A stretch of DNA of 64,000 bases from Cherax quadricarinatus (taxonomy: Eukaryota > Arthropoda > Malacostraca > Decapoda > Parastacidae): positions 34,730,482-34,794,481 of the forward strand of contig NC_091312.1 in assembly GCF_038502225.1 (NCBI RefSeq), given 5' to 3'. The notes below the pieces were generated by a model. It was not told where the DNA came from, searched no databases, and worked only from the letters and a program-made list of their open reading frames with translations. Of the stretch, positions 25,974 to 64,000 are shown piece after piece (position 1 is the first letter of the stretch; each line of letters starts with the position of its first letter). Made by a program: the position numbers and the translations under genes.

Positions 25974-26279
25974 AAAACAACACAGACGGAGCCAGGGAGA
26001 AGAACACAGACGGAGCCAGGGAGAACAACACAGACGGAGCCAGGGAGAACAACACAGACGGAGCCAGGGAGAACAACACAGACGGAGCCAGGGAGAACAA
26101 CACAGACGGAGCCAGGGAGAACAAAACAGACGGAGCCAGGGAGAACAAAACAGACGGAGCCAGGGAGAACAAAACAGACGGAGCCAGGGAGAACAACACA
26201 GACGGAGCCAGGGAGAGCAACACAGACGGAGCCAGGGAGAACAACACAGACGGAGCCAGGGAGAACAAAACAGACGGAG
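25974..26279 (+). repeat. 24-bp minisatellite, left part
   Basis: About 12.5 tandem units of 24 bp containing CAGACGGAGCCAGGGAG with AACAACA or AACAAAA tails. The array is cut at 26279 by the LTR element and resumes at 29014 in phase. Frames stay open because 24 is a multiple of three; no protein is implied. Confidence 0.95.
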
Positions 26280-26595
26280 TATAACGGGCTTGTTTGGTAG
26301 CTGTAGCGGGTGTGAATGATATACTTCTTCGGAGGCTTCTTTCTTTATTGATAACTAGTGTTGGGTTACACAGGCTTGTGTGTTTGTGCCCATGGCCCGG
26401 GCAGGGCCATGCCCACGAGAGAGAGCTGGGAGGCCTTGTTCCTTGCTGCTAGGCCGCTGTGTGAGTGAGAGCGAGGCAAGTCTGGGCATACTGAAGTGGC
26501 AAGGCCTATAGATGGCAGCACCTGAGTGGCGCGAAATATGATCTAAGCTGGCAGACAGCATGGGCTGTCTGTGCAGACAGTACAGGCTGTCTACA
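26280..26595 (-). repeat. 3' LTR of the non-autonomous element
   Basis: 316 bp, nearly identical to 28694-29013 except short variable stretches around 26360-26380 and 26430-26450. It contains GGGCATGGCCCTGCCCGGGC and a CAGACAG-rich start. AATAAAG for polyadenylation is near 26345 (- strand). Confidence 0.88.
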
Positions 26596-28693: not shown

Positions 28694-29013
28694 TATAACG
28701 AGGCTTGTTTTGGTAGCTGTAGAGCGGGGTGTGAATGATACGTTCTTCGGAGGCTTCTTTCTTTATTGATAAGTAGTTGTGGGTTACACAGCACTGTGTG
28801 TTTGTGCCCATGGCCCGGGCAGGGCCATGCCCACGAGAGAGAGCTGGGAGTACTTGTGTGTTGCTGCCAGGCCGCTGTGTGAGTGAGAGCGAGGCAAGTC
28901 TGGGCATACTGAAGTGGCAAGGCCTATAGATGGCAGCACCTGAGTGGCGCGAAATATGATCTAAGCTGGCAGACAGCATGGGCTGTCTGTGCAGACAGTA
29001 CAGGCTGTCTACA
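28694..29013 (-). repeat. 5' LTR of the non-autonomous element
   Basis: 320 bp, the element's first LTR on the - strand, starting TGTAGACAGCC at 29013. It matches 26280-26595 closely. Confidence 0.88.
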
Positions 29014-30316
29014 GGAGCCAGGGAGAACAAAACAGACGGAGCCAGGGAGAACAACACAGACGGAGCCAGGGAGAACAACACAGACGGAGCCAGGGAGAAC
29101 AACACAGACGGAGCCAGGGAGAACAAATCAGACGGAGCCAGGGAGAACAACACAGACGGAGCCAGGGAGAACAACACAGACGGAGCCAGGGAGAGCAACA
29201 CAGATGGAGCCAGGGAGAACAAAACAGACGGAGCCAGGGAGAACAACACAGACGGAGCCAGGTAAAACAAAACAGACGGAGCCAGGGAGAACAACACAGA
29301 CGGAACCAGGGAGAACAACACAGACGGAGCCAGGGAGAGCAACACAGACGGAGCCAGGGAGAACAACACAGACGGAGCCAGGGAGAACAACACAGACGGA
29401 GCCAGGGAGAAAAACACAGACGGAGCCAGGGAGAACAACACAGACGGAGCCAGGGAGAACAAAACAGACGGAGCCAGGGAGAACAAAACAGACGGAGCCA
29501 GGGAGAACAACACAGACGGAGCCAGGTAAAACAAAACAGACGGAGCCAGGGAGAACAACACAGACGGAGCCAGGGAGAACAACACAGACGGAGCCAGGGA
29601 GAACAACACAGACGGAGCCAGGGAGAACAACACAGACGGAGCCAGGGAGAACAACACAGACGGAGCCAGGGAGAACAAAACAGACGGAGCCAGGGAGAAC
29701 AAAACAGACGGAGCCAGGGAGAACAACACAGTCGGCGCCAGGGAGAACAACACAGACGGAGCCAGGTAAAACAAAACAGACGGAGCCAGGGAGAACAACA
29801 CAGACGGAGCCAGGGAGAACAACACAGACGGAGCCAGGGAGAACAACACAGACGGAGCCAGGGAGAACAACACAGGAGCCAGGGAGAACAACACAGACGG
29901 AGCCAGGGAGAACAACACAGGAGCCAGGGAGAACAACACAGACGGGGCCAGGGAGAACAACAAAGGAGCCAGGGAGAACAACACAGGAGCCACGGAGAAC
30001 AACACAGGAGCCAGGGAGAACAACAAAGGAGCCAGGGAGAACAACACAAGAGCCAGGGAGAACAACACAGGAGCCAGGGAGAACAACACAGGAGCCAGGG
30101 AGAACAACACAGGAGCCAGGGAGAACAACACAGGAGCCAGGGAGAACAACACAGGAGCCAGGGAGAACAACACAGGAGCCAGGGAGAACAACACAGGAGC
30201 CAGGGAGAACAACACAGGAGCCAGGGAGAACAACACAGGAGCCAGGGAGAACAACACAGGAGCCAGGGAGAACAACACAGGAGCCAGAGAGAACAACACA
30301 GGAGCCAGGGAGACAT
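29014..30316 (+). repeat. 24-bp then 21-bp minisatellite, right part
   Basis: Continuation of the array at 25974. Up to about 29870 units are 24 bp (with ACAGACGGAGCC). From there to the end they are mostly 21 bp (ACAGGAGCC), missing three bases. Mixed 24/21 units occur in between (29870-29960). Variants GGTAAAACAAA and GGGAGAGCAAC recur. Both periods are multiples of three, so frames of 380-550 codons stay open on both strands; these are side effects of the repeat, not genes. Confidence 0.95.
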
Positions 30317-30430
30317 AACATAGCAACAGATGCTGACAGTAGTGTTTAGTGAGATATTTATTAGAGTAATATACCGTTGATCACCATGAAGTAAATAAAG
30401 TTTATTATTTCGTTCTGTTTCATTTTGAAG

Positions 30431-30514
30431 ATGAAACTCCAGATGTTCAGTGTGGACGCCTTCACCGAGTCTCCTTTCCGGGGTAACCCAGCAGCTGTGG
30501 TGCTTCTTACCCAG
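30431..30514 (+). CDS. PBLD: PBLD (PhzF-like isomerase family), first coding exon
   Basis: Encodes 28 residues from ATG 30431: MKLQMFSVDAFTESPFRGNP followed by AAVVLLTQ. This matches the N-terminus of PBLD/PhzF-fold proteins, in which a short beta strand leads to the conserved FRGNPAAV motif. PBLD is a cytosolic enzyme-like protein with the two-domain diaminopimelate-epimerase-type fold; its substrate in animals is not established. The exon ends ACCCAG|GTCAGT, a strong donor in phase 0 (GT at 30515). ATG 30431 is chosen because it aligns with the family start. The pyrimidine-rich TTCGTTCTGTTTCATTTTGAAG just upstream could be the acceptor of a 5' UTR intron. The next exon is at 41339. Confidence 0.9.
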
Positions 30515-33500
30515 GTCAGTGCCCTCACCCAGGTCAGTGCCCTCACCCAGGTCACTGCCCTCACCCAGGTCACTGCCCTCACCCAGGTCACTGCCCTCAC
30601 CCAGGTCACTGCCCTCACCCAGGTCACTGCCCTCACCCAGGTCACTGCCCTCACCCAGGTCACTGCCCTCACCCAGGTCACTGCCCTCACCCAGGTCACT
30701 GCCCTCACCCAGGTCACTGCCCCAGCAGCTGTGGTGCTTCTTACCCAGGTCAGTGCCCTCACCCAGGTCACTGCCCCAGCAGCTGTGGTGCTTCTTACCC
30801 AGGTCAGTGCCCTCACCCAGGTCACTGCCCCAGCAGCTGTGGTGCTTCTTACCCAGGTCAGTGCCCTCACCCAGGTCACTGCCCTCACCCAGGTCACTGC
30901 CCTCACCCAGGTCACTGCCCTCACCCAGGTCACTGCCCTCACCCAGGTCACTACCCTCACCCAGGTCACTGCCCTAACCCAGGTCACTGCCCTCACCCAG
31001 GTCACTACCCTCACCCAGGTCACTGCCCTCACCCAGGTCACTACCCTCACCCAGGTCACTGCCCTCACCCAGGTCAGTGCCCTCACCCAGGTCACTGCCC
31101 TCACTCAGGTCACTGCCCTCACCCAGGTCACTACCCTCACCCAGGTCACTGCCCTCACCCAGGTCACTGCCCTCACTCAGGTCACTGCCCTCACCCAGGT
31201 CACTACCCTCACCCAGGTCACTGCCCTCACTCAGGTCACTGCCCTCACCCAGGTCACTACCCTCACCCAGGTCACTGCCCTCACCCAGGTCACTACCCTC
31301 ACCCAGGTCACTACCCTCACCCAGGTCACTGCCCTCACCCAGGTCACTGCCCTCACCCAGGTCAGTGCCCTCACCCAGGTCACTGCCCTCACTCAGGTCA
31401 CTGCCCTCACCCAGGTCACTGCCCTCACCCAGGTCACTGCCCTCACCCAGGTCACTACCCTCACCCAGGTCACTGCCCTCACCCAGGTCACTGCCCTCAC
31501 CCAGGTCATTACCCTCACCCAGGTCACTGCCCTCACCCAGGTCACTACCCTCACCCAGGTCACTGCCCTCACCCAGGTCAGTGCCCTCACCCAGGTCACT
31601 GCCCTCACTCAGGTCACTGCCCTCACCCAGGTCACTACCCTCACCCAGGTCACTGCCCTCACCCAGGTCACTGCCCTCACCCAGGTCACTGCCCTCACCC
31701 AGGTCACTGCCCACACCCAGGTCACTGCCCTCACCCAGGTCACTACCCTCACCCAGGTCACTACCCTCACCCAGGTCACTGCCCTCACCCAGGTCACTAC
31801 CCTCACCCAGGTCACTGCCCTCACCCAGGTCAGTGCCCTCACCCAGGTCACTGCCCTCACTCAGGTCACTGCCCTCACCCAGGTCACTACCCTCACCCAG
31901 GTCACTGCCCTCACCCAGGTCACTGCCCTCACCCAGGTCACTACCCTCACCCAGGTCACTGCCCTCACCCAGGTCAGTGCCCTCACCCAGGTCACTGCCC
32001 TCACTCAGGTCACTGCCCTCACCCAGGTCACTCCCCTCACCCAGGTCACTGCACTCACCCAGGTCAATGCCCTCACCCAGGTCACTGCCCTCACCCAGGT
32101 CACTGCCCTCACCCAGGTCACTGCCCTCACCCAGGTCACTGCCCTCACCCAGGTCACTGCCCTCACCCAGGTCACTGCCCTCACGCAGGTCACTGCCCTC
32201 ACCCAGGTCATTACCCTCACCCAGGTCAGTGCCCTCACCCAGGTCACTGCCCTCACCCAGGTCAGTGCCCTCACCCAGGTCAGTGCCCTCACCCAGGTCA
32301 CTACCCTCACCCAGGTCAGTGCCCTCACCCAGGTCAGTGCCCTCACCCAGGTCAGTGCCCTCACCCAGGTCAGTGCCCTCACCCAGGTCAGTGCTCTCGC
32401 CCAGGTCACTACCCTCACCCAGGTCAGTGCCCTCACCCAGGTCACTGCCCTCACCCAGGTCACTGCCCTCACCCAGGTCACTGCCCTCACCCAGGTCACT
32501 GCCCTCACCCAGGTCACTGCCCTCACCTAGGTCACTGCCCACACCCAGGTCAGTGCCCTCACCCAGGTCACTACCCTCAACCAGGTCAGTGCCCTCACCC
32601 AGGTCACTACCCTCACCCAGGTCAGTGCCCTCACCCAGGTCACTGCCCTCACCCAGGTCACTGCCCTCACCCAGGTCACTGCCCTCACCCAGGTCAGTGC
32701 CCTCACCCAGGTCACTACCCTCAACCAGGTCAGTGCCCTCACCCAGGTCACTACCCTCAACCAGGTCAATGCCCTCACCCAGGTCACTACCCTCAACCAG
32801 GTCAGTGCCCTCACCCAGGTCACTGCCCTCACCCAGGTCACTACCCTCACCCAGGTCAGTGCCCTCACCCAGGTCACTGCCCTCACCCAGGTCACTACCC
32901 TCACCCAGGTCACAACCCTCACCCAGGTCACTGCCCTCACCCAGGTCACTGCCCTCAAACAGGTCAATGCCCACTCCCAGGTCAGTGCCCTCACCCACGT
33001 CACTGCCCTCACCCAGGTAAGTGCCCCCACCCAGGTCACTGCCCTCACCCAGGTCAGTGCCCTCACCCAGGTCAGTGCCCTCACCCAGGTCACTGCCCTC
33101 ACCCAGGTCACTGCCCTCACCTAGGTCACTGCCCACACCCAGGTCAGTGCCCTCACCCAGGTCACTACCCTCAACCAGGTCAGTGCCCTCACCCAGGTCA
33201 CTACCCTCAACCAGGTCAGTGCCCTCACCCAGGTCACTACCCTCAACCAGGTCAGTGCCCTCACCCAGGTCACTGCCCTCACCCAGGTCACTACCCTCAC
33301 CCAGGTCAGTGCCCTCACCCAGGTCAGTGCCCTCACCCAGGTCACTGCCCTCACCCAGGTCACTGCCCTCAACCAGGTCACTACCCTCAACCAGGTCAGT
33401 GCCCTCACCCAGGTCACTACCCTCAACCAGGTCACTGCCCTCACCCAGGTCACTGCCCTCACCCAGGTCACTACCCTCACCCAGGTCAGTGCCCTCACCC

Positions 33501-36500
33501 AGGTCAGTGCCCTCACCCAGGTCACTACCCTCACCCAGGTCAGTGCCCTCACCCAGGTCAGTGCCCTCACCCAGGTCAGTGCCCTCACCCAGGTCACTGC
33601 CCTCACCCAGGTCAGTGCCCTCACCCAGGTCAGTGCCCTCACCCAGGTCAGTGCCCTCACCCAGGTCAGTGCCCTCACCCAGGTCAGTGCCCTCACCCAG
33701 GTCAGTGCCCTCACCCAGGTCAGTGCCCTCACCCAGGTCAGTGCCCTCACCCAGGTCAGTGCCCTCACCCAGGTCAGTGCCCTCACCCAGGTCAGTGCCC
33801 TCACCCAGGTCAGTGCCCTCATCCAGGTCAGTGCCCTCACCCAGGTCACTACCCTCACCCAGGTCACTACCCTCACCCAGGTTACTGCCCTCACCCAGGA
33901 CAGTGTCCTCACCCAGGTCAGTGCCCTCACTCAGGTCACTACCCTCACCTAGATCAGTGCCCTCACCCAGGTCAGTGCCGTCACCCAGGTCAGTGCAATC
34001 ACCCAGGTCACTACCCTCACCTAGGTCAGTGCCCTCACCCAGGTCAGTGCCCTCACCCAGGTCAGTGCCCTCACCCCGGTCAGTGCCCTCATCCAGGTCA
34101 CTACCCTCACCCAGGTCAGTGCCCTCACCTAGGTCAGTGCCCGCACCCAGGTCAGTGCCCTCACCCAGGTCAGTGCCCTCACCGAGGTCGGTGCCCTCAC
34201 CTAGGTCAGTGCCCTCACCCAGGTCAGTGCCCTCACCCAGGTCAGTGCCCTCACCCAGGTCACTACCCTCACCCAGGTCAGTGCCCTCACCCATGTCAGT
34301 GTCCTCACCCAGGTAACTACCCTCACTCAGGTTAGTGACCTCACCAGGTCAGTGCCCTGACCCAGGTCACTGCCCTCACGAAGGTCAGTGCCCTCACCCA
34401 GGTCAGTGCCCTCACCCAGGTCATTACCCTCACCCAGGTCAGTGCACTCACCCAGGTCAGTGTCCTCACCCAGGTCACTGCCATCACCCAGGTCAGTGCC
34501 CTCATCAGGTCAGTGCAATCACCCAGGTCACTACCCTCACCCAGGTCAGTGCCTTCACCCAGGTCGGTGTCCTCACACAGGTCACTACCCTCACCCAGGT
34601 CAGTGCCCTCACTCAGGTGAGTGCCCTCACCCAGGTCACTACCCTCGCCCAGGTCAGTGCCCTCATCCAGGTCACTACCCTCACCCAGGTCAGTGCCCTC
34701 ACCCAGGTCAGTGCCCTCATCCAGGTCACTACTCTCACCCAGGTCAGTGCCCTCACCCAAGTCAGTGCCCTCATCCAGGTCAGTGCCCTCTCCCAGGTCA
34801 GTGCCCTCACCTAGGTCAGTGCCCTCACCCAGGTCAGTGCCCTCACCCAGGTCAGTGCCCTCACCCCGGTCAGTGCCCTCATCCAGGTCACTACCCTCAC
34901 AAAGGTCAGTGCCCTCGCCTAGGTCAGTGCCCGCACCCAGGTCAGTGCCCTCACCCAGGTCAGTGCCCTCACCCAGGTCGGTGCCCTCATCCAGGTCAGT
35001 GCCCTCACCCAGGTCAGTGCCCTCACCCAGGTCAGTTCCCTCACCCAGGTCGGTGCCCTCACCAGGTCAGTGTCCTCACCCAGGTCAGTGCCCTCACCCA
35101 AATCACTACCCTCATCCAGGTCAGTGCCCTCATCCAGGTCACTGCTCTCACCCAGGTCAGTGCCCTCACCCAGGTCAGTGCCCTCACCCCCGTCAGTGCC
35201 CTCACCCAGGTCAGTGCCCTCACCCAGGTCAGTGCCCTCACCCAGGTCAGTGCCCTCAACCAGGTCAGTGACCTCACCCAGGTCAGTGCCTTCACCCAGG
35301 TCACTACCCTCACCCAGGTCAGTGCCCTCATCCAGGTCACTGCTCTCACCCAGGTCAGTGCCCTCACCCAGGTCAGTGCCCTCACCCCCGTCAGTGCCCT
35401 AACCCAGGTCAGTGCCCTCACCCAGGTCAGTGCCCTCACCCAGGTCAGTGCCCTCACCTAGGTCAGTGCCCTCACCCCGGTCAGTGCTCTCATCCAGGTC
35501 ACTACCCTCACCCAGGTCAGTGGCCTCACCTAGGTCAGTGCCCTCACCCAGGTCAGTGCCCTCACCCAGGTCAGTGCCCTCACCTAGGTCAGTGCCTTCA
35601 CCCAGGTCAGTGCCCTCACCCAGGTCAGTGCCCTCACCCAGGTCAGTGCCCTCACCCAGGTCAGTGCCCTCACCCAGGTCACTACCCTCACCCAGGTCAG
35701 TGCCCTGACCTATGTCAGTGTCCTCACCCAGGTAACTACCCTCACCCAGGTTAGTGACCTCACCAGGTCAGTGCCCTGACCCAGGTCACTACCCTCACCC
35801 AGGTCAGTGCCCTCACCCAGGTCAGTGCCCTCACCCAGGTCACTACCCTCACCCAGGTCAGTGCCCTCACCCAGGTAAGTGTCCTCACCCAGGTCAGTGC
35901 CCTCACCCAGGTCAGTGCCCTCATCAGGTCAGTGCCCTCACCCAGGTCACTACCCTCACCCAGGTCAGTGCCCTCACCCAGGTCAGTGCCCTCACCCAGG
36001 TCAGTGCCCTCAGCCAGGTCAGTGCCCTCACCCCGGTCAGTGCCCTCATCCAGGTCACTACCCTCACCCAGGTCAGTGCCCTCACCTAGGTCAGTGCCCG
36101 CACCCAGGTCAGTGCCCTCACCCAGGTCAGTGCCCTCATCAGGTCAGTGCCCTCACCCATGTCACTTCCCTCACCAAGGTCAGTGCCCTCACTCAGGTGA
36201 GTGCCCTCACCCAGGTCACTTCCCTCGCCCAGGTCAGTGCCCTCATCCAGGTCACTACCCTCACCCAGGTCAGTGCCCTCACCAAGGTCAGTGCCCTCAT
36301 CAAGGTCACTACTCTCACCCAGGTCAGTGCCCTCACCCCCGTCAGTGCCCTCACCCAGGTCAGTGCCCTCACCCAGGTCAGTGCCCTCACCCAGGTCAGT
36401 GCCCTCACCCAGGTCAGTGCCCTCACCCAGGTCAGTGCCCTCATCCAGGTCACTACCCTCACCCAGGTCAGTGCCCTCACCTAGGTCAGTGCCCGCACCC

Positions 36501-39500
36501 AGGTCAGTGCCCTCACCCAGGTCAGTGCCCTCACCCAAGTCGGTGCCCTCACCCAGGTCAGTGCCCTCACCCAGGTCAGTGCCCTCACCCAGGTCAGTTC
36601 CCTCACCCAGGTCGATGCCCTCACCCAGGTCAGTGTCCTCACCCAGGTCAGTGCCCTCACCCAGGTCACTACCCTCACCCAGGTCAGTGCCCTCATCCAG
36701 GTCACTACTCTCTCCCACGTCAGTGCTCTCACCGAGGTCAGTGCCCTCACCTAGGTCAGTGCGCGCACCCAGGTCAGTGCCCTCACCCAGGTCAGTGCCC
36801 TCACCCAGGTCGGTGCCCTCACCCAGGTCAGTGCCCTCGCCCAGGTCACTACCCTCACCCAGGTCACTACCCTCACCCAGGTCACTAACCTCGCCCAGGT
36901 CAGTGCCCTCACCCAGGTCACTACCCTCACCCAGGTCACTACCCTCACCCAGGTCACTACTCTCACCCAGGTCAATGCCCTCACCCAGGTCAGTACCCTC
37001 ACCCGGGTCAGTACCCTCACCCAGGTCACTACCCTCACCCAGGTCACTACTCTCACCCAGGTCACTACCCTCATCCAGGTCACTACCCTCACTCAGGTCA
37101 GTGCCCTCACCCAGGTCACTACCCTCGCCCAGGTCAGTGCCCTCACCCAGGTCACTACCCTCACCCAGGCTACTACCCTCACCCAGGTCACTACCCTCAC
37201 CCAGGTCAGTGCCCTCACCCAGGTCAGTGCCCTCACCCAGGTCACTACCCTCGCCCAGGTCAGTGCCCTCATCCAGGTCACTACCCTCACCCAGGTCACT
37301 ACCCTCACTCAGGTCAGTGCCCTCACCCAGGTCACTACCCTCGCCCAGGTCAGTGCCCTCACCAGGTCACTACCCTCGCCCAGGTCAGTGCCCTCATCCA
37401 GGTCATTACCCTCACCCAGGTCACTACCCTCACTCAGGTCAGTGCCCTCACCCAGGTCACTACCCTCGCCCAGGTCAGTGCCCTCACCAAGGTCACTACC
37501 CTCACCCAGGTCAGTGCCCTCACTCAGGTGAGTGCCCTCACCCAGGTCACTACCCTCACCCAGGTCAGTGCCCTCACCCAGGTCACTACCCTCGCCCAGG
37601 TCACTACCCTCACCCAGGTCACTACCCTCACCCAGGTCACTACCCTCACCCAGGTCAGTACCCTCACCCTGGTCACTACCCTCACCCAGGTCACTACCCT
37701 CACCCAGGTCACTACCCTCACTCAGGTCACTACCCTCACCCAGGTCACTACCCTCGCCCAGGTCAGTGCCCTCACCCAGGTCACTACCCTCACCCAGGTC
37801 ACTACACTCACCCAGGTCACTACCCTCGCCCAGGTCAGTGCCCTCACCCAGGTCACTACCCTCACCCAGGTCACTACCCTCACCCAGGTCACTACTCTCA
37901 CCCAGGTCAATGCCCTCACCCAGGTCACTACCCTCACCCGGGTCAGTACCCTCTCCCAGGTCACTACCCTCACCCAGGTCACTACCCTCACCCAGGTCAC
38001 TACCCTCACCCAGGTCACTACCCTCACCCAGGTCAGTGCCCTCACCCAGGTCACTACCCTCGCCCAGGTCAGTGCCCTCACCCAGGTCACTACCCTCATC
38101 CAGGTCACTACGCTCACTCAGGTCAGTGCCCTCACCCAGGTCACTACCCTCGCCAGGTCAGTGCCCTCACCCAGGTCACTACCCTCACCCAGGCCACTAC
38201 CTTCACCCAGGTCACTACCCTCACCCAGGTCACTACCCTCGCCCAGGTCAGTGCCCTCACCCAGGTCAGTGCCCTCACCCAGGTCACTACCCTCAACCAG
38301 GTCACTACCCTCACCCAGGTCAGTGCCCTCACCAGGTCAGTGCCCTCACCCAGGTCACTACCCTCACCCAGGTCACTACCCTCGCCCAGGTCAGTGCCCT
38401 CACCCAGGTCACTACCCTCACCCAGGTCACTACCCTCACCCAGGTCACTACCCTCACCCAGGTCACTACCCTCACCCAGGTCACTACCCTCACCCAGGTC
38501 ACTACCCTCACCCAGGTCACTACCCTCACCCAGGTCACTACCCTCACCCAGGTCACTACCCTCACCCAGGTCACTACCCTCACCCAGGTCACTACCCTCA
38601 CCCAGGTCACTACCCTCACCCAGGTCACTACCCTCACCCAGGTCACTACCCTCACCCAGGTCACTACCCTCACCCAGGTCACTACCCTCACCCAGGCCAC
38701 TACCCTCACCCAGGTCACTACCCTCACCCAGGTCACTACCCTCACCCAGGTCACTACCCTCGCCCAGGTCACTACCCTCACCCAGGTCACTACCCTCACC
38801 CAGGTCACTACCCTCACCCAGGTCAGTGCCCTCACCCAGGTCAGTGCCCTCATCCAGGTCACTACCCTCACCCAGGTCAGTACCTCACCCAGGTCACTAC
38901 CCTCACCCAGGCCACTACCCTCACCCAGGTCACTACCCTCAAACAGTTCACTACCCTCGCCCAGGTCACTACCCTCACCCAGGTCACTACCCTCACCCAG
39001 GTCACTACCCTCACCCAGGTCACTACCCTCACCCAGGTCACTACCCTCACCCAGGTCACTGCCCTCACCCAGGTCACTACCCTCACCCAGGTCACTACCC
39101 TCACCCAGGTCAGTGCCCTCACCCAGGTCACTACCCTCACCCAGGTCACTACCCTCACCCAGGTCACTACCCTCGCCCAGATCACTACCCTCACCCAGGT
39201 CACTACCCTCGCCCAGGTCACTACCCTCGCCCAGGTCAGTGCCCTCACCCAGGTCACTACCCTCACCCAGGTCACTACCCTCACCCAGGTCACTACCCTC
39301 ACCCAGGTCACTACCCTCACCCAGGTCACTACCCTCACCCAGGTCAGTGCCCTCACCCAGGTCACTACCCTCGCCCAGGTCAGTGCCCTCACCCAGGTCA
39401 CTACCCTCACCCAGGTCACTACCCTCACCCAGGTCACTACCCTCACCCAGGTCACTACCCTCACCCAGGTCACTACCCTCACCCAGGTCACTACCCTCAC

Positions 39501-40416
39501 CCAGGTCACTACCCTCACCCAGGTCACTACCCTCACCCAGGTCACTACCCTCACCCAGGTCACTACCCTCACCCAGGTCACTACCCTCACCCAGGTCACT
39601 ACCCTCACCCAGGTCACTACCCTCACCCAGGTCACTACCCTCACCCAGGTCACTACCCTCACCCAGGTCACTACCCTCACCCAGGTCACTACCCTCACCC
39701 AGGTCACTACCCTCACCCAGGTCACTACCCTCACCCAGGTCACTACCCTCACCCAGGTCACTACCCTCACCCAGGTCACTACCCTCACCCAGGTCACTAC
39801 CCTCACCCAGGTCACTACCCTCACCCAGGTCACTACCCTCACCCAGGTCACTACCCTCACCCAGGTCACTACCCTCACCCAGGTCACTACCCTCACCCAG
39901 GTCACTACCCTCACCCAGGTCAGTGCCCTCACCCAGGTCACTACCCTCACCCAGGTCACTACCCTCACCCAGGTCACTACCCTCACCCAGGTCACTACCC
40001 TCACCCAGGTCAGTGCCCTCACCCAGGTCACTACCCTCGCCCAGGTCACTACCCTCGCCCAGGTCAGTACCCTCACCCAGGTCACTACCCTCACCCAGGT
40101 CACTACCCTCACCCAGGTCAGTGCCCTCACTCAGGTGAGTGCCCTCACCCAGGTCACTACCCTCGCCCAGGTCAGTACCCTCACCCAGGTCACTACCCTC
40201 ACCCAGGTCACTACCCTCACCCAGGTCAGTGCCCTCGCCCAGGTCACTACCCTCTCCCAGGTCACTACCCTCACCCAGGCCACTACCCTCACCCTGGTCA
40301 CTACCCTCACCCAGGTCACTACCCTCACACAGGTCACTACCCTCACCCAGGTCAGTGCCCTCACCCAGGTCACTACCCTCGCCCAGGTCAGTGCCCTCAC
40401 CCAGGTCAGTGCTGTG
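30515..40416 (+). repeat. 18-bp minisatellite, about 550 units, derived from the PBLD splice donor
   Basis: Unit GTCAGTGCCCTCACCCAG and variants GTCACTGCC and GTCACTACC. It begins at the exon 1 donor, so the exon end ACCCAG|GTCAGT is itself a repeat boundary. Early units are mainly CACTGCC or CACTACC, the middle (about 32500-36700) mainly CAGTGCC, and 38400-40080 is nearly uniform CACTACC. Indels of one or more bases shift phase in 34300-38900. Longer periods that are multiples of 18 occur, for example one signature at 31073, 31361, 31577, 31829 and 31973. The - strand has paired GGG tracts in each unit. Very long open frames in several phases are by-products of a period divisible by three. 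Confidence 0.97.
30721..30856 (+). repeat. three duplicated copies of the PBLD exon 1 end
   Basis: The last 28 bases of the exon (CCCAGCAGCTGTGGTGCTTC plus TTACCCAG) recur at 30721-30748, 30775-30802 and 30829-30856. Each is followed by GTCAGT, with a spacing of exactly 54 bp (three units). They show directly that exon DNA was amplified with the repeat. Confidence 0.95.
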
Positions 40417-41338
40417 TAAGTATCATTTACTGTAGCATAAAGAAGCAGTGTAATATAGTTCTAACCATTTTTTTAATAAAATATTCGCAGATGTCAGATA
40501 GAGACAGACATGATTCTCGTGTCACACTCCACATTAACCTCTTAAAAAAAATATGCTCAATATTGTTCAGCTTTTTGATGTTGGAAATTAGTACTGATTT
40601 TATGTTTTCTGGGTAAATGTCTTCAAATATATATTCGATTTAACTTATTACTTGGGAGACCTGCACTCCCAAGTTTTTTTTTTTTTTTGGGGGGGGGGGG
40701 CTTTCATGATATTTTAAAGGACTTTTTTGCATATTTATTTTGAGTTTGTTCGTTATTTTGACTGAGAGGATTTTTTAGATTAATCGTTTGTATATTTTAA
40801 GGCAGTGAAGAAGCTAAAGAGGAATCAGGAAAGTATGATTGTCTTAGATTTTATTTAACATTTGATTACTCCTTGATATAATTAATGTAAGGAGTGCACA
40901 AGAAAGCGTCGATAATGCTCCACTGAAATGAACGCCAATATTTATTAGAACAGTATATGAGGATGTCATATCTAGCTGCCAGTTTGGTTCATGTTACTGA
41001 GGTAAGAGTCGATAAAAATAATTTTATCTTTCAGTGCATACTATTTAGTATCAGGTGTGGTGACCAGAAGTATCAAAGGCATTACCCAGGTTTTTAACTT
41101 GGGCTGCGTATATTGTGTACTACAGGATTTTATAAATTTCATTAATAATACTTTTTATGGAATCTGAATCTATGCTGACAATTTTATGCATGTTAAGAGT
41201 GGAATATTGGATAACTGCGTCATGTAATTTATATTTTGAAGTATTTTTTTTGAGATTTTGGGAAAGTTTGATGTTAGTTTGAGATTGGTAAATTTTTCCA
41301 CATCTTTTGGAACATAATGCTCCATAATATGCTCACAG

Positions 41339-41543
41339 CCACAAGATGATGCGACGCTGCAGAAAGTGGCTACTGAACTCAACTTGTCAGAGACATCATA
41401 CGTGCGTCTCCTGGAGGGTGATGAATCTGCCCCCTGGACCACCGGCTGCCGATACTCCCTCAGGTGGTTCACACCTGTACAGGAGGTTCTTCTGTGTGGA
41501 CACGCTACCATCGCCACCGCCCATGTCCTCTTCTCTGAGTTGG
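41339..41543 (+). CDS. PBLD: PBLD, second coding exon
   Basis: Encodes 68 residues plus one base, from PQDDATLQKVATELNLSETS through RWFTPVQEVLLCGHATIATA to HVLFSELG. NLSET holds the Glu that corresponds to the catalytic acid/base of PhzF. RWFTP..EV.LCGHAT is the family signature around the active site, so the catalytic residues appear kept. Acceptor GCTCACAG|CC is at 41338; donor TTGG|GTATGT follows 41543 (phase 1). Only the N-terminal third of the roughly 290-residue protein is in view; later exons must lie right of the window. No lesion is seen in either exon. Confidence 0.92.
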
Positions 41544-43381: not shown

Positions 43382-43720
43382 TGTAGTGATACTGGTCCTG
43401 TGGGGAGCAGCAGCAGGATAATACTGCACCACCTCTAGGGGCCCTTAACAACAACAACAGTTTGGTGTGTGTCATGGGCACTAACACATGGTGTGTGATT
43501 CTCTCCTACTTTATCCATTTATCAGCGATGCAGATTACATGGTGAGTTTAAATATGTGGCCTGTAGTTATAACTTTTCTCTTGACATATGCAAGACATCA
43601 CCATCCCTGTAGAAGCCATTATTAGATGTACTAGTCATTATATTTTGTTGTTGCAGAAGTACTATGAAGATTCTATGTTCAATAAAGCCTAGAGATAAGG
43701 CCTGTGTTTCTATCACAACA
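43382..43720 (+). repeat. 5' LTR of the mag-like element
   Basis: 339 bp, TGTAGTGATA...TATCACAACA, with matching inverted ends. TATATTTT is at 43639-43646 and AATAAA at 43681-43686. Placing the RNA start about 30 bp after the TATA box gives 43669. Confidence 0.95.
43639..43646 (+). promoter_or_regulatory. TATA box of the mag-like element
   Basis: TATATTTT lies 30 bp before 43669, the first base of the segment complementary to the primer-binding site. That is standard RNA polymerase II start spacing. Confidence 0.6.
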
Positions 43721-43721
43721 A

Positions 43722-43739
43722 TTTATTGAACATAGAATC
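43722..43739 (+). promoter_or_regulatory. self-complementary primer-binding site (Tf1-type self-priming)
   Basis: TTTATTGAACATAGAATC, one base after the LTR, is the perfect reverse complement of GATTCTATGTTCAATAAA at 43669-43686 in the LTR (18 of 18 pairs, ending by mismatch on both sides). If RNA starts at 43669, its 5' end can fold onto this site and prime minus-strand synthesis, as known for S. pombe Tf1 and proposed for Tf1/sushi-type elements. A chance 18-bp match at this exact place is very unlikely. A simple hairpin of other function remains possible. Confidence 0.7.
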
Positions 43740-43782
43740 CTGGGCTACCTGGTGGTGATCCTGCGCTAGACTACATCACAAC

Positions 43783-46700
43783 ATGGAGCGTTTACTGAAA
43801 CCTGAGAGGCTAGACTGTGACCCCAGCTTATCAACGGCTGCTCAGGAATGGAAGCACTGGTTTAAGACTTTCGAAAACTTCTTGGGAGCCCTTCCTAAAG
43901 AAGATCTAGATAAACTAAGTCTGCTTATCAATTTTGTGTCACCTAAGATATATGAGGCTATTTCTGAGTGTAATACCTACGAAGATGCTATCAAAACCCT
44001 CAAGTCTCAGTATATTAAACCTACAAATGAAATCTTTGCACGCTATTGCCTTGCAACTCGCCGCCAGCAGATTGATGAGTCCTTAGAGGAATACTTTCAA
44101 GCACTGAAAATTTTAGGTAAGGACTGTCACTTCTAAGCAGTGACAGCTGCTCAGTATTGTGAAGAGTCCATCAGGGATGCTTTTATCAGTGGCCTGCAAT
44201 CACCAATAATAAGGCAGCGTTTATTGGAGAATAAAACTCTCGACTTAGCCGCTGCCTTTGACCAGGCAAGAGCTCTAGATTCAGCCCAGAAGAATTCTGA
44301 AGTATACAGTACCACTCAGCCTTCTCGAGTGGTAAGTGCTGCAATTCCTGACCAAGACTCTTGCAATGAAGTTACTGGGGAACCTGCCTCAGTGACAGCA
44401 GCAGCAGGTACGGTGTGTTTCTTTTGTGGTTTTTCAAGACATCCACGTCCAAAGTGTCCTGCTCGTGAAGCAATGTGCCATAAATGCCACAAGAAAGGTC
44501 ACTTTGCTAAAGTATGTCGTGCTAATGCATCAACAAGAGCTAGTGCCTCCACACATTCCAGTGATCATGCGACTCTAGCAACAGTGACTTCTGCGGCTAC
44601 TCCAAATTCACTGTCAAAGGCAGTTGTGAAAGTATTCATCAAAGGAACAGAAGTAGATGGTCTTATTGATAGTGGCAGCTCAGAGAGTTTCATCAACCTT
44701 GACTTAGTTAAACGGCTCTCCTTGACTCTACATCACTCATCAGGTACCGTTTCCATGGCATCAACATCTCTCTCTATTCAGACCTTAGGGTTTTGTAAGG
44801 TAAATCTCAGAGTTAATGGAAAGGATTATCAAGATGTACATTTAGCTATTCTGCCACAACTGTGCTCTGATGTTATCCTTGGTCAGGACTTTCAGAAGCT
44901 GCATGGTAGTGTCACCTTAACATATGGAGGTGAACTGCCTCCTCTTGTTGTCTGTGGACTTAGCACTTTAAGGGTAGACCCACCAAAGCTGTTTGCAAAT
45001 CTTACCGCGGATTGCCATCCTATATCAGCTAAGTCACGCCGCTATTCTTATGAGGATCGGATGTTCATTGAGAAAGAAACTCAGAGGCTGCTGAAGGAGG
45101 GTATTATAGAACCGAGTGATTCCCCTTGGCGTGCACAGGTTGTTGTTGTTAAAGATGGTTATAGGAAACGGAGACTGGCTATCGATTACTCTGAGACAAT
45201 CAACAAATTTACACTTCTTGATGGGTACCCTCTACCTCGAATTGACGATACAGTGAACAAAATTGTTCAGTACTACGTGTTTAGCACAATTGATCTGCAG
45301 AGTGCCTATCATCAAGTCCCTATAAGGAATGAAGATAAACCATACACAGCGTTTCAGGCTAGTGATGGCCTGTATCAGTTTACCAGAGTCCCTTTTGGAG
45401 TCACCAATGGGGTAGCCTGCTTCCAACGAATTATGGATTCACTCATTCAGGAAGAGCAACTCATGGGAACCTACGCGTATTTAGATAATGTTACCATTTG
45501 TGGCAAGACCCAGGAGGAACATGATGCAAACCTTGATAAGTTTTTGGAAGCCGCCAAGAAGAAAAATATCAGTTACAATGAGGAAAAGTGCACTTTTTCA
45601 ACTAAAAGGCTTAGCATCCTTGGTTATGTAGTGGAAGGAGGTTCAATATTCCCAGACCCTGAAAGACTACGACCTCTACGGGAACTTCCAATGCCTCAAG
45701 ACAAAAAGTCACTCCGAAGAACTCTTGGTCTCTTTGCTTATTACTCACAATGGATCTACAACTATTCAAGTAAAGTCCGCCCATTGAGTGCTACCACATT
45801 TCCTGTGACAAAGGAAGCAGAAGCCGCTTTCCATACTCTCAAACAGGACATTGAAAACTCAGTAGTTCAAGCCATTGATGAGTCCCTACCAATCGAAGTG
45901 GAAACGGATGCATCTGACATTGCCATTGCTGCAGTCTTATCTCAGGCAGGACGACCAGTAGCCTTCTTTTCGAGAACTTTTCAAGGATCAGAGAAATGTT
46001 ATGCTGCTGTAGAAAAGGAAGCCCAGGCCATCATAGAAGCAGTTCGCCACTGGAGGCATTATTTAACTGGTAGACATTTCACCATAAGGACTGACCAACG
46101 GTCCGTGATGTATATGTTCGACAAGAGGCACAAAAGTAGGATAAAGAATGACAAGATATTACGCTGGAGGATGGAACTATCGTGTTATGACTTTGATATT
46201 CTGTACCGACCGGGTCAAGAGAACATCTCACCTGATGCATTCTCTAGGTCCCACTGTGGAGCAGCATGTCATGATTTGCAATCACTCTCAGCTCTCCACA
46301 AGGCTTTGTGTCACCCAGGAGTTACACGCCTGTACCATTTTGTCAAATCAAAGAACATGCCCTACTCAGTGGAAGATGTGCGACAAGTGATCAGAGCATG
46401 CAGAGTATGTGCAGAGTGCAAGCCAAACTTTCATCAGCCAGAGAAGACTCATCTCATAAAATCCACCCAGCCTTTCGAAAGATTGAATATAGATTTCAAA
46501 GGACCTCTACCAAGCACAAATCAGAATAGGTATTTCCTTAACATAGTAGATGAATATTCAAGGTTTCCCTTTGTATTCCCCTGTGCAAATATGGCTGCTT
46601 CAACTGTTATTAGTTGTCTTTCACAGTTGTTCTCTATTTTTGGTATGCCAGCTTATATCCATTCAGACAGGGGATCCTCGTTCATGAGTAACGAACTTCA

Positions 46701-47370
46701 GGAGTTTTTGGCTAGCAAAGGTATTGCCTGCAGCAGAACAACAAGCTACAACCCTCAAGGCAATGGTCAAGTGGAGCGGTTCAATGGTACTATATGGAAG
46801 GCAGTTACAATGACATTAAAGTCGCGCAATCTACCTGTTCAACACTGGCAAACTGTCCTACCTGATGCTCTTCACTCTATTGGATCACTGCTGTGCACAG
46901 CTACTAATGCAACCCCTCATGAAAGACTCCTCAACTATTCACGTCGTTCCTCTACGGGAGCCTCCGTGCCCACTTGGTTATGTCATCCTGGACCCGTTCT
47001 CCTGAAGAGTCACCGTAGGATGAACAAGACGGATCCTTTAGTGGAAGAGGTAGAGCTCCTGCAAGCTAATCCACATTACGCCCACATTCGCTATCAAAAT
47101 GGTGAAGAGACTACAGTATCTACAAGACATTTAGCCCCAGTTGAAATCCCTATTAGTGTGGAATCTCAAGATACACCAATAGATGTGAAAGATGCTTCGT
47201 TTTCTCCTGGAAAGCCCCTTGAGACTACCCCTATGGAAATAGAGGATTCTGCTCCAGCAGTTAATCAAACCCCGCTGGAAAATATCGAACCTGGTGAAGA
47301 GGCTCAAGGGCTACGAAGGTCGGGACGTGTACGTCGCCCACCTAACAGTTTGGGAGATTACTGTCTCTGA
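43783..47370 (+). pseudogene. gag-pol of the mag-like element, one in-frame stop
   Basis: One frame of 1195 codons from ATG 43783 to TGA 47368-47370, interrupted only by TAA 44134-44136 in the capsid region. Domains in order: capsid (to about codon 185); two zinc knuckles ([28 protein letters not shown], about 44418-44520); protease ([19 protein letters not shown]); RT ([51 protein letters not shown]) with YLDN at 45478-45489 where most families have YLDD; RNase H ([36 protein letters not shown]); integrase with zinc module (CRVCAEC) and core ([25 protein letters not shown]). The stop may be a simple nonsense mutation. YLDN may be normal in this group. Confidence 0.93.
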
Positions 47371-47389
47371 TATTTTAGAAGGGGGAGAT

Positions 47390-47728
47390 TGTAGTGATAC
47401 TGGTCCTGTGGGGAGCAGCAGCAGGGTAATACTGCACCACCTCTAGGGGCCCTTAACAACAACAACAGTTTGGTGTGTGTCATGGGCACTAACACATGGT
47501 GTGTGATTCTCTCCTACTTTATCCATTTATCAGCGATGCAGATTACATGGTGAGTTTAAATATGTGGCCTGTAGTTATAACTTTTCTCTTGACATATGCA
47601 AGACATCACCATCCCTGTAGAAGCCATTATTAGATGTACTAGTCATTATATTTTGTTGTTGCAGAAGTACTATGAAGATTCTATGTTCAATAAAGCCTAG
47701 AGATAAGGCCTGTGTTTCTATCACAACA
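47390..47728 (+). repeat. 3' LTR of the mag-like element
   Basis: 339 bp, same as the 5' LTR except for one base noted at 47426. The RNA-start/self-complementary segment recurs at 47677-47694. It is followed by the second CAGGT. Confidence 0.95.
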
Positions 47729-48016
47729 CAGGTATAGGTCAGCAATAGAAATAATTAGGAGTAAGGGTGGGAACCCTGTCATATGTGGTATTTTGCCAAG
47801 GAGAGGAGTTGGAAATGAATAGTTGTCCAGGGCAATTGGTGTCAATTGCTGGCTGGACAAATACTGTAAGGAAAATGCGGTAACATTCATTGACAACTGG
47901 GACCTCTTCTATGGCAGAAATGACATGTATGCCAGGGATGGGGTTCACTTATCTAGGTGTGGGGTGGGAGCACTGGCAACTGCAGTGGAGGGAGCAGTTA
48001 GGACTTTAAACTAGGA
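47729..48016 (+). pseudogene. ORF1 of the inner CR1-like LINE, second part
   Basis: Continues the esterase domain after the LTR insertion: YRSAIEIIRSKGGNPVICGI, LPRRGVGNE, a TAG stop at about 47820, then LSRAIGVNCWLDKYC, FIDNWDLFYGRNDMYARDGV with the catalytic RDGVHLS block, ending AVRTLN before TAG. Compared with the outer copy (GNEWMS), the stop replaces a Trp codon. Confidence 0.88.
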
Positions 48017-53836: not shown

Positions 53837-54020
53837 GAGCACGTAGTTGTTTGTATGTTTGTGTTTTTGTGAATGAGTGAGGGTGGGACCGAGGGTGGGA
53901 GTGTACTCACCTATATGTACTCACCTGTATGTGGTTGCAAGTGTGTGTGTGTGTACTCACCTAGTTGAGGTTGCAGGGGTCGAGTCCTAGCTCCTGGCCC
54001 CGCCTCTTCACTGGTCGCTA

Positions 54021-58327: not shown

Positions 58328-58370
58328 TATATGTGTGTATGCGTGTGTGTGTGTGTGAGAGTGTGTGTAC
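58328..58370 (+). repeat. (GT)n tract at the 3' tail of CR1-like LINE copy 2
   Basis: GTGTGTATGCGTGTGTGTGT and following GT units lead into TACTCACCTAGTTGTACTCA. On the - strand this is the element's AC-repeat tail after two copies of ACTAGGTGAGTACA. Confidence 0.85.
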
Positions 58371-59790
58371 TCACCTAGTTGTACTCACCTAGTTGAGGTT
58401 GCGGGGGTCGAGTCCGAGCTCCTGGCCCCGCCTCTTCACTGACCGCTACTAGGTCACTCTCCCTGAGCCGTGAGCTTTATCATACCTCTGCTTAAAGCTA
58501 TGTATGGATCCTGCCTCCACTACATCGCTTCCCAAACTATTCCACTTACTGACTACTCTGTGGCTGAAGAAATACTTCCTAACATCCCTGTGATTCATCT
58601 GTGTCTTCAGCTTCCAACTGTGTCCCCTCGTTACTGTGTCCAATCTCTGGAACATCCTGTCTTTGTCCACCTTGTCAATTCCTCTCAGTATTTTGTATGT
58701 CGTTATCATGTCCCCCCTATCTCTCCTGTCCTCCAGTGTCGTCAGGTTGATTTCCCTTAACCTCTCCTCGTAGGACATACCTCTTAGCTCTGGGACTAGT
58801 CTTGTTGCAAACCTTTGCACTTTCTCTAGTTTCTTCACGTGCTTGGCTAGGTGTGGGTTCCAAACTGGTGCCGCATACTCCAACATGGGCCTAACGTACA
58901 CGGTGTACAGGGTCCTGAATGATTCCTTATTAAGATGTCGGAATGCTGTTCTGAGGTTTGCTAGGCGCCCATATGCTGCAGCAGTTATTTGGTTGATGTG
59001 CGCTTCAGGAGATGTGCCTGGTGTTATACTCACCCCAAGATCTTTTTCCTTGAGTGAGGTTTGTAGTCTCTGACCCCCTAGACTGTACTCCGTCTGCGGC
59101 CTTCTTTGCCCTTCCCCAATCTTCATGACTTTGCACTTGGTGGGATTGAACTCCAGGAGCCAATTGCTGGACCAGGTCTGCAGCCTGTCCAGATCCCTTT
59201 GTAGTTCTGCCTGGTCTTCGATCGAGTGAATTCTTCTCATCAACTTCACGTCATCTGCAAACAGGGACACCTCAGAGTCTATTCCTTCCGTCATGTCGTT
59301 CACAAATACCAGAAACAGCACTGGTCCTAGGACTGACCCCTGCGGGACCCCGCTGGTCACAGGTGCTCACTCTGACACCTCGCCACGTACCATGACTCGC
59401 TGCTGTCTTCCTGACAAGTATTCCCTGATCCATTGTAGTGCCTTCCCTGTTATCCCTGCTTGGTCCTCCAGTTTTTGCACCAATCTCTTGTGTGGAACTG
59501 TGTCAAACGCCTTCTTGCAGTCCAAGAAAATGCAATCCACCCACCCCTCTCTCTCTTGTCTTACTGCTGTCACCATGTCATAGAACTCCAGTAGGTTTGT
59601 GACAGGATTTCCCGTCCCTGAAACCATGTTGGCTGCTGTTGATGAGATCGTTCCTTTCTAGGTGTTCCACCACTCTTCTCCTGATAATCTTCTCCATGAT
59701 TTTGCATACTATACATGTCAGTGACACTGGTCTGTAGTTTAATGCTTCATGTCTGTCTCCTTTTTTAAAGATTGGGACTACATTTGCTGT

Positions 59791-63923: not shown

Positions 63924-64000
63924 GACGACGTTTCGGTCCGACTTGGACCATTGACAAAGTGTGACTTTGTCAATGGTCCAAGTCGGACCGAAACGTCGTC
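63924..64000. repeat. perfect inverted repeat at the window end, 37-bp arms
   Basis: Arms 63924-63960 and 63964-64000 with loop GTG; it may extend beyond the window. The right arm holds GGTCC-AAGTC-GGACC (5-bp stem) followed by GAAACGTCGTC, again like the stem II plus GAAACGTC half of a hammerhead. It interrupts the BEL/Pao RNase H. Confidence 0.9.

Follow-up and report, generated by a model that had tools for sequence, protein, structure and literature searches.

The first intron of a PhzF/PBLD-like gene, located in a 64,000-nucleotide stretch of the genome of the crayfish Cherax quadricarinatus (hereafter, the window), was found to consist largely of an 18-bp minisatellite whose register begins at the splice donor of exon 1. 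An origin of this array at the exon 1/intron 1 junction is well supported by the sequences of the repeats and their flanks, and, judged by its anatomy, the array is of the kind known from the IFI6 and ABCA7 genes. What is special in it is that it is in frame, holds copies of the exon and occurs outside the vertebrates. It is probable that the array is a junction-born, in-frame donor minisatellite which is removed mostly from the first donor and gives rise to minor in-frame isoforms. PBLD is taken here to be the name of the animal member of the PhzF family. The exons and the array between them are as follows.

30431 to 30514, + strand: first coding exon of the PhzF/PBLD-like gene (MKLQMFSVDAFTESPFRGNPAAVVLLTQ), 84 nt, assigned by homology and preceded by the acceptor-like TTTCATTTTGAAG (acceptor score 5.6, human-based matrix).
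30515 to 30523, + strand: intron side of the 5' splice site CAG|GTCAGT that is presumed to be the true one, together with the first intron-derived half-unit, placed by sequence and homology.
30509 to 40412, + strand: 18-bp minisatellite of 550 units with the consensus GTCA[C/G]T[G/A]CCCTCACCCAG, the final 6-9 nt of the exon lying in its first period.
40405 to 40423, + strand: final unit remnant GTCAGTGCT passing into GTGTAAGTAT, where intron 1 is presumed to have begun originally.
41339 to 41543, + strand: second coding exon, 205 nt, with acceptor ATGCTCACAG|CC and donor TGG|GTATGT, placed by sequence, homology and scores.

When joined, exons 1 and 2 encode the N-terminus of a PhzF-family protein (PF02567, E = 1.4e-31, 110.5 bits with a cut-off of 27; TIGR00654, E = 5.3e-25, 88.4 bits with a cut-off of 76.2), and the exon junction was free of gaps in the alignments with 1s7j_A, 1qy9_A and 1sdj_A (three shown of 11 matches). 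The family matches and the structure alignments agree with the identity that the original prediction had assigned to these exons. Since a gap-free junction with PhzF-family proteins is expected if the mRNA keeps no repeat unit, the alignments support 30515 as the donor position and suggest that the mature mRNA would lack the repeat. Used as a query in a plasmid search, exon 1 gave one bacterial match (47 nt, 83%, E = 3e-4).

Tandem Repeats Finder (TRF) reported one 18-bp array in the window (30509-40412, 550.8 copies, 90% matches), and segmentation by dynamic programming cut 30515-40404 into 550 units, 540 of 18 bp and ten of 17 bp, among which 100 distinct sequences occurred. A degenerate 18-mer with two ambiguous positions, allowing up to 3 mismatches, matched 541 times in the window against 0.29 matches expected from shuffles. 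Intron 1 measures 10,824 bp, 9,898 bp of which are array, and the array begins in register with the exon/intron border ACCCAG|GTCAGT; TRF, segmentation and lengths thus upheld the claim of an 18-bp array that starts from the exon junction and fills most of the intron. The most frequent units were GTCACTACCCTCACCCAG (n = 145), GTCAGTGCCCTCACCCAG (n = 125) and GTCACTGCCCTCACCCAG (n = 68). Since 294 of the 550 units start with GTCACT and 215 with GTCAGT, GTCAGTGCCCTCACCCAG, which had been put forward as the main form, is a minority form. A search for a higher-order repeat through unit-identity lags found no dominant lag (highest value 0.27, at lag 3, as compared to 0.14 by chance). The unit pattern had 0 matches in viral contigs and 0 in prokaryote contigs, a result that is uninformative for an animal genome. 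The longest uniform part of the array was the following.

39397 to 39918, + strand: longest run of identical units, 29 consecutive copies of GTCACTACCCTCACCCAG, read from the sequence.

The origin of the array was examined in its flanks and in its 5' part. A GTCAGT-type unit is identical at 16 of 18 positions to the final 9 nt of exon 1 (CTTACCCAG) followed by the 9 nt of intron that resume after the array (GTCAGTGCT), which on its own is weak evidence because any array ends with partial units. Copies of the exon itself were found within the array.

30713 to 30874, + strand: three tandem 54-bp composite units, each with a perfect 28-nt copy of the end of exon 1 and a full donor.

These copies (CCCAGCAGCTGTGGTGCTTCTTACCCAG; 30721-30748, 30775-30802 and 30829-30856) extend upstream of what the 18-bp period contains. 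The exon codons within the composites (N-P-A-A-V-V) fall in the family alignment (GNPAAV), and the DNA was therefore transferred from the exon to the intron. The composite joint GCC|CCAG has CCC in common with the exon, an overlap such as slippage or repair would be expected to leave, and the composites preserve the reading frame. Origin by amplification of the junction, which the original prediction had proposed, is accordingly better founded than it had claimed, with both the exon copies in the three composites and the flank match behind it. The array may have been seeded by an 18-bp tandem duplication over the exon 1/intron 1 junction, covering the 9 last nt of the exon and the 9 first of the intron, and may then have expanded to about 550 units. 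Every duplication would restore CAG|GT, so that the original donor would persist where the exon ends, and the intron would take the repeats with it on removal; growth of the array would thereby be near-neutral for the protein. We infer these duplication steps from the present arrangement; the restoration of CAG|GT, together with the addition of whole codons at each duplication, would explain why such growth is harmless. The locus may thus be regarded as a sequence record of the birth of a minisatellite at an exon-intron junction, with copies of the exon trapped within.

To obtain edits per unit, each 18-bp unit was compared with whichever of the three main units was closest to it; the six composite halves and the ten 17-bp units were excluded. 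The first kb had 0.12 edits per unit, the stretch 34515-35514 had 0.82, and the final two kb had 0.24-0.27; the most recent growth seems to have occurred near both ends of the array, the exon side included. GTCAGT is dominant in the diverged middle (19-21 of the 27-28 units per 500 bp in 33515-36514), GTCACTG dominates the 5' part of the array, and GTCACTA its 3' part. The presence of GTCAGT at both array borders suggests that this form is ancestral and that the weaker GTCACT is derived; GTCACT may have spread by chance or through less disturbance of splicing. A duplication within the array was also observed, in which 34200-34600 and 35619-36019 (offset 1,419 bp) are 93-97% identical over 400 bp and have rare variants as well as two 17-bp units in common.

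The splice signals of the units were then compared with the presumed true donor. The exact donor from −3 to +6, CAG|GTCAGT, occurs in 186 of the 550 units (187 sites when the final remnant at 40405 is counted), and CAG|GTCACT, with C instead of G at +5, in 286. Scored with a human-based matrix, CAG|GTCAGT reached 7.9 and CAG|GTCACT 4.1, as compared to 12.7 for CAG|GTAAGT and 12.2 for CAG|GTGAGT; the duplex energies with a likewise human-based U1 sequence were −9.1 kcal/mol for GTCAGT, −5.6 kcal/mol for GTCACT and −13.2 and −13.3 kcal/mol for GTAAGT and GTGAGT. The following sites were identified by matrix score and U1 energy.

33017 to 33022, + strand: GTAAGT donor in the array, predicted to be stronger than the true donor.
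35875, + strand: second GTAAGT donor in the array.
34617, 36197, 37528 and 40135, + strand: GTGAGT donors in the array.

Most units are thus predicted to be poor donors, about one third to be equal to the true donor, and six to be better. The statement that each unit repeats the donor from −3 to +6 therefore applies to the 186 exact units and fails for the majority, and that of hundreds of functional donors was too strong, since most units lack G at +5 and pair less stably with U1. Units 1 and 2 both carry GTCAGT, and an exact −3 to +6 copy lies 18 nt from the true donor; one exact copy was found within 100 nt of it, 4 within 500 nt and 18 within 2,000 nt. With an exact copy so close, a third of the units identical and the six predicted stronger sites further in, the intron offers a natural test of donor choice among identical neighbours. 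A further GTAAGT at 40416-40421, directly behind the last repeat, is perfect on the intron side, scores 5.8 (human-based matrix) and is in a phase unfit for exon 2; it is possibly a decoy or relic donor.

The 18-bp unit corresponds to six codons, read as VSALTQ, VTALTQ or VTTLTQ, and the frame of exon 1 continues into the array.

30515 to 32527, + strand: frame of exon 1 open over 111 complete units plus 15 nt of the unit that follows, the first in-frame stop being TAG at 32528-32530.

Ahead of this stop there are 19 exact donor sites, the true donor included, and they are rarer close to the exon. As none of the six codons of the unit is a stop, splicing now and then from a donor a short way downstream, of the sort known from IFI6 and ABCA7, would insert residues in frame: 6 from the donor at 30533, 78 from that at 30749, or more. 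Donors past 32528 follow the in-frame stop, and their use would lead to decay or truncation of the product.

Intron 18 of human ABCA7 carries a variable number tandem repeat (VNTR) with a C-rich 25-bp unit that begins with the donor GT of exon 18; its largest allele measures 10,678 bp (ca. 427 units), retention of one unit is seen in RNA, and skipping of exon 19 grows with length (PMC5954066, 2018). The crayfish array is likewise C-rich and of kilobase scale, and it opens with the GT of the presumed donor of exon 1. The 25-bp unit of ABCA7 shifts the frame on retention, whereas the 18-bp unit is in frame, and the ABCA7 VNTR is human, polymorphic and accompanied by RNA data, whereas the crayfish array is known from the sequence of one assembly alone. 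Copies of the upstream exon are present in the crayfish array, while the excerpted text has no mention of them for the ABCA7 VNTR (PMC5954066). In the IFI6 (6-16) minisatellite, two downstream repeat units act as donors, giving three mRNA species (PMC4526556). No precedent had been named in the original prediction; ABCA7 and IFI6 are close ones, and as in these donor minisatellites the crayfish array includes the true donor, placed by homology, and has units that copy it. The IFI6 array, reportedly described by Turri et al. in 1995 and said to comprise about 26 units of 12 bp, is far smaller than the crayfish array and belongs to a vertebrate interferon gene. ABCA7 indicates that such arrays can matter in disease, and a case in another animal gene family suggests a general route.

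Other published systems share single traits with the array. Fission yeasts gained introns through tandem duplication at proto-splice sites, with 24-nt repeats each carrying AGGC (PMC3629103), and the AGGT duplication model of intron gain dates to 1989 (described by Ma et al. 2016, PMC4974935). In the fission yeast introns, as in the crayfish, each repeat unit carries a splice site or proto-splice site and the intron is composed of repeat copies; however, the yeast repeats are exonic, have few copies and form a new intron, whereas the crayfish repeat enlarges a presumed existing one (PMC3629103). Like the ratchet points of Drosophila, the units juxtapose an acceptor and a donor motif at AG|GT, as scored with human-based matrices. 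The fly sites are conserved, shown in RNA and located in very long introns (PMC6110457), whereas those of the crayfish stand by the hundred in tandem and are known solely as sequence. A paper on C. elegans minisatellites ties them to splicing in ways other than donor copies (PMC4039745). A literature search for junction-born minisatellites and for recursive splicing in tandem repeats, with partial journal coverage, returned ABCA7 and no recursive-splicing ladder among the matches listed.

We infer that the first donor is dominant and that in-frame isoforms are minor. Against this account, six array donors are predicted to surpass the true donor in U1 pairing, the latter having an unfavourable C at +3; the matrices used for donors and acceptors, like the U1 sequence, are human-based and uncalibrated for this species. 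The best-surviving alternative, which we regard as unlikely, is a passive intronic minisatellite that drifted through replication or recombination and whose copies are never used in splicing. The profile of edits along the array described above is drift-like, the array contains a single run of 29 identical units, and crayfish and other decapods are described as minisatellite-rich. However, donor copies are used in both human cases, and the second donor, identical from −3 to +6, is just 18 nt from the true one.

A recursive-splicing ladder, in which many units would serve as both acceptor and donor and the intron would be removed stepwise and without trace, was considered improbable. The typical unit end CCCTCACCCAG|G resembles an acceptor, CTCAC one unit upstream is a possible branch site, and CCCTCACCCAG|GTCAGT would complete the rung. 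With thresholds of at least 3 for the acceptor and at least 7 for the donor (human-based matrices), the array held 200 two-sided AG|GT sites and the remainder of the window 9, as compared to a mean of 0.52 and a maximum of 2 in 50 mononucleotide shuffles of the array; in addition, 522 of the 761 AGs in the array scored at or above the exon 2 acceptor. Recursive sites in flies are likewise juxtaposed 3' and 5' sites at AG/GT, but the known cases lie in very long introns with segments nearly all longer than 1 kb (PMC6110457). Moreover, the acceptor scores weigh C almost as T and are likely too generous, so that the C-rich tract is probably overrated by the simple matrix, and duplication of any CAG|GT junction yields such sites automatically, with most units carrying the weak GTCACT. 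Somewhat more doubtful still is a combined scheme in which hundreds of two-sided AG|GT rungs, each unit offering acceptor, branch site and donor, would allow splicing at any rung with an open frame for the first 111 units, growth would be self-tolerated, and GTCACT near the exon would have spread via less competition with the true donor.

Inflation or scrambling of the array during assembly is very unlikely. The array contains long internal repeats that match exactly (519 bp at lag 18 and 336 bp at lag 989) and would favour such an artefact, but the 100 unit types, the gradual change of type along the array and the scattered 17-bp units argue against it; the length may still be off.

The least credible alternative is a coding repeat, in which a portion of the array would be translated as a continuation of exon 1 and be subject to selection. 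The 111 units are in frame and open, and by copies 11 of the 17 edits in the open stretch are synonymous, as compared to 51 of 222 elsewhere (Fisher, P = 0.0005). However, seven of these 11 represent one variant, which was probably amplified, and when only distinct changes are counted, 5 of 10 are synonymous there and 22 of 73 elsewhere. The open stretch is also young, with 0.16 edits per unit (105 units) as compared to 0.46 in 32513-34331 and 0.54 beyond; from the 15 stop changes among the 222 edits elsewhere, ca. 1.2 stops were expected among its 17 edits, so that finding none is unremarkable. Moreover, the insert would interrupt the conserved PhzF N-terminus. Since the frame is open because the stretch is young, and the synonymous excess is mostly one repeated variant, a coding repeat was rejected as the main account.

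Masking of the donor copies by RNA structure was also rejected, since the predicted fold of 161 nt around the donor was only slightly better than that of shuffled sequences (z = −0.98), of which 30 of 200 folded equally well or better. On the G-rich strand, canonical G-quadruplex patterns gave 3 matches with loops of up to 7 nt, and 691 only when loops of up to 12 nt were allowed; they were not used as an argument.

A short six-frame scan with a few motifs found no match to the C-terminal half of PhzF within the window; the region downstream of exon 2 holds retroelements, and the remaining gene presumably lies beyond position 64000. One retroelement (43390-47750) has reverse transcriptase, RNase H, integrase and protease domains, with an open reading frame (ORF) at 44137-47370, and is flanked by stretches with near-identical ORFs at an offset of 4,008 bp (43390 and 47398). 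This retroelement appears to interrupt a second element, the ORF of which breaks off at 43386 and seems to continue from ca. 47694.

Upstream of exon 1, a second minisatellite with a 24-bp unit near GGAGCCAGGGAGAACAACACAGAC was observed at 29014-30320 (ca. 57 copies) and at 25976-26279 (ca. 13 copies). The 24-bp array stops 110 bp upstream of exon 1, which is thus wedged between two arrays, and its period drops to 21 bp toward the exon. A 271-bp direct duplication (26325-26595 and 28743-29013; 96% identical, 2,418 bp apart) adjoins both 24-bp arrays. Finally, 14-bp tandem pairs, TGTACTCACCTATA and TGTACTCACCTAGT, occur at 53902-53932 and 58366-58395; their minus-strand sequence, TAGGTGAGTACA, resembles a strong splice donor.
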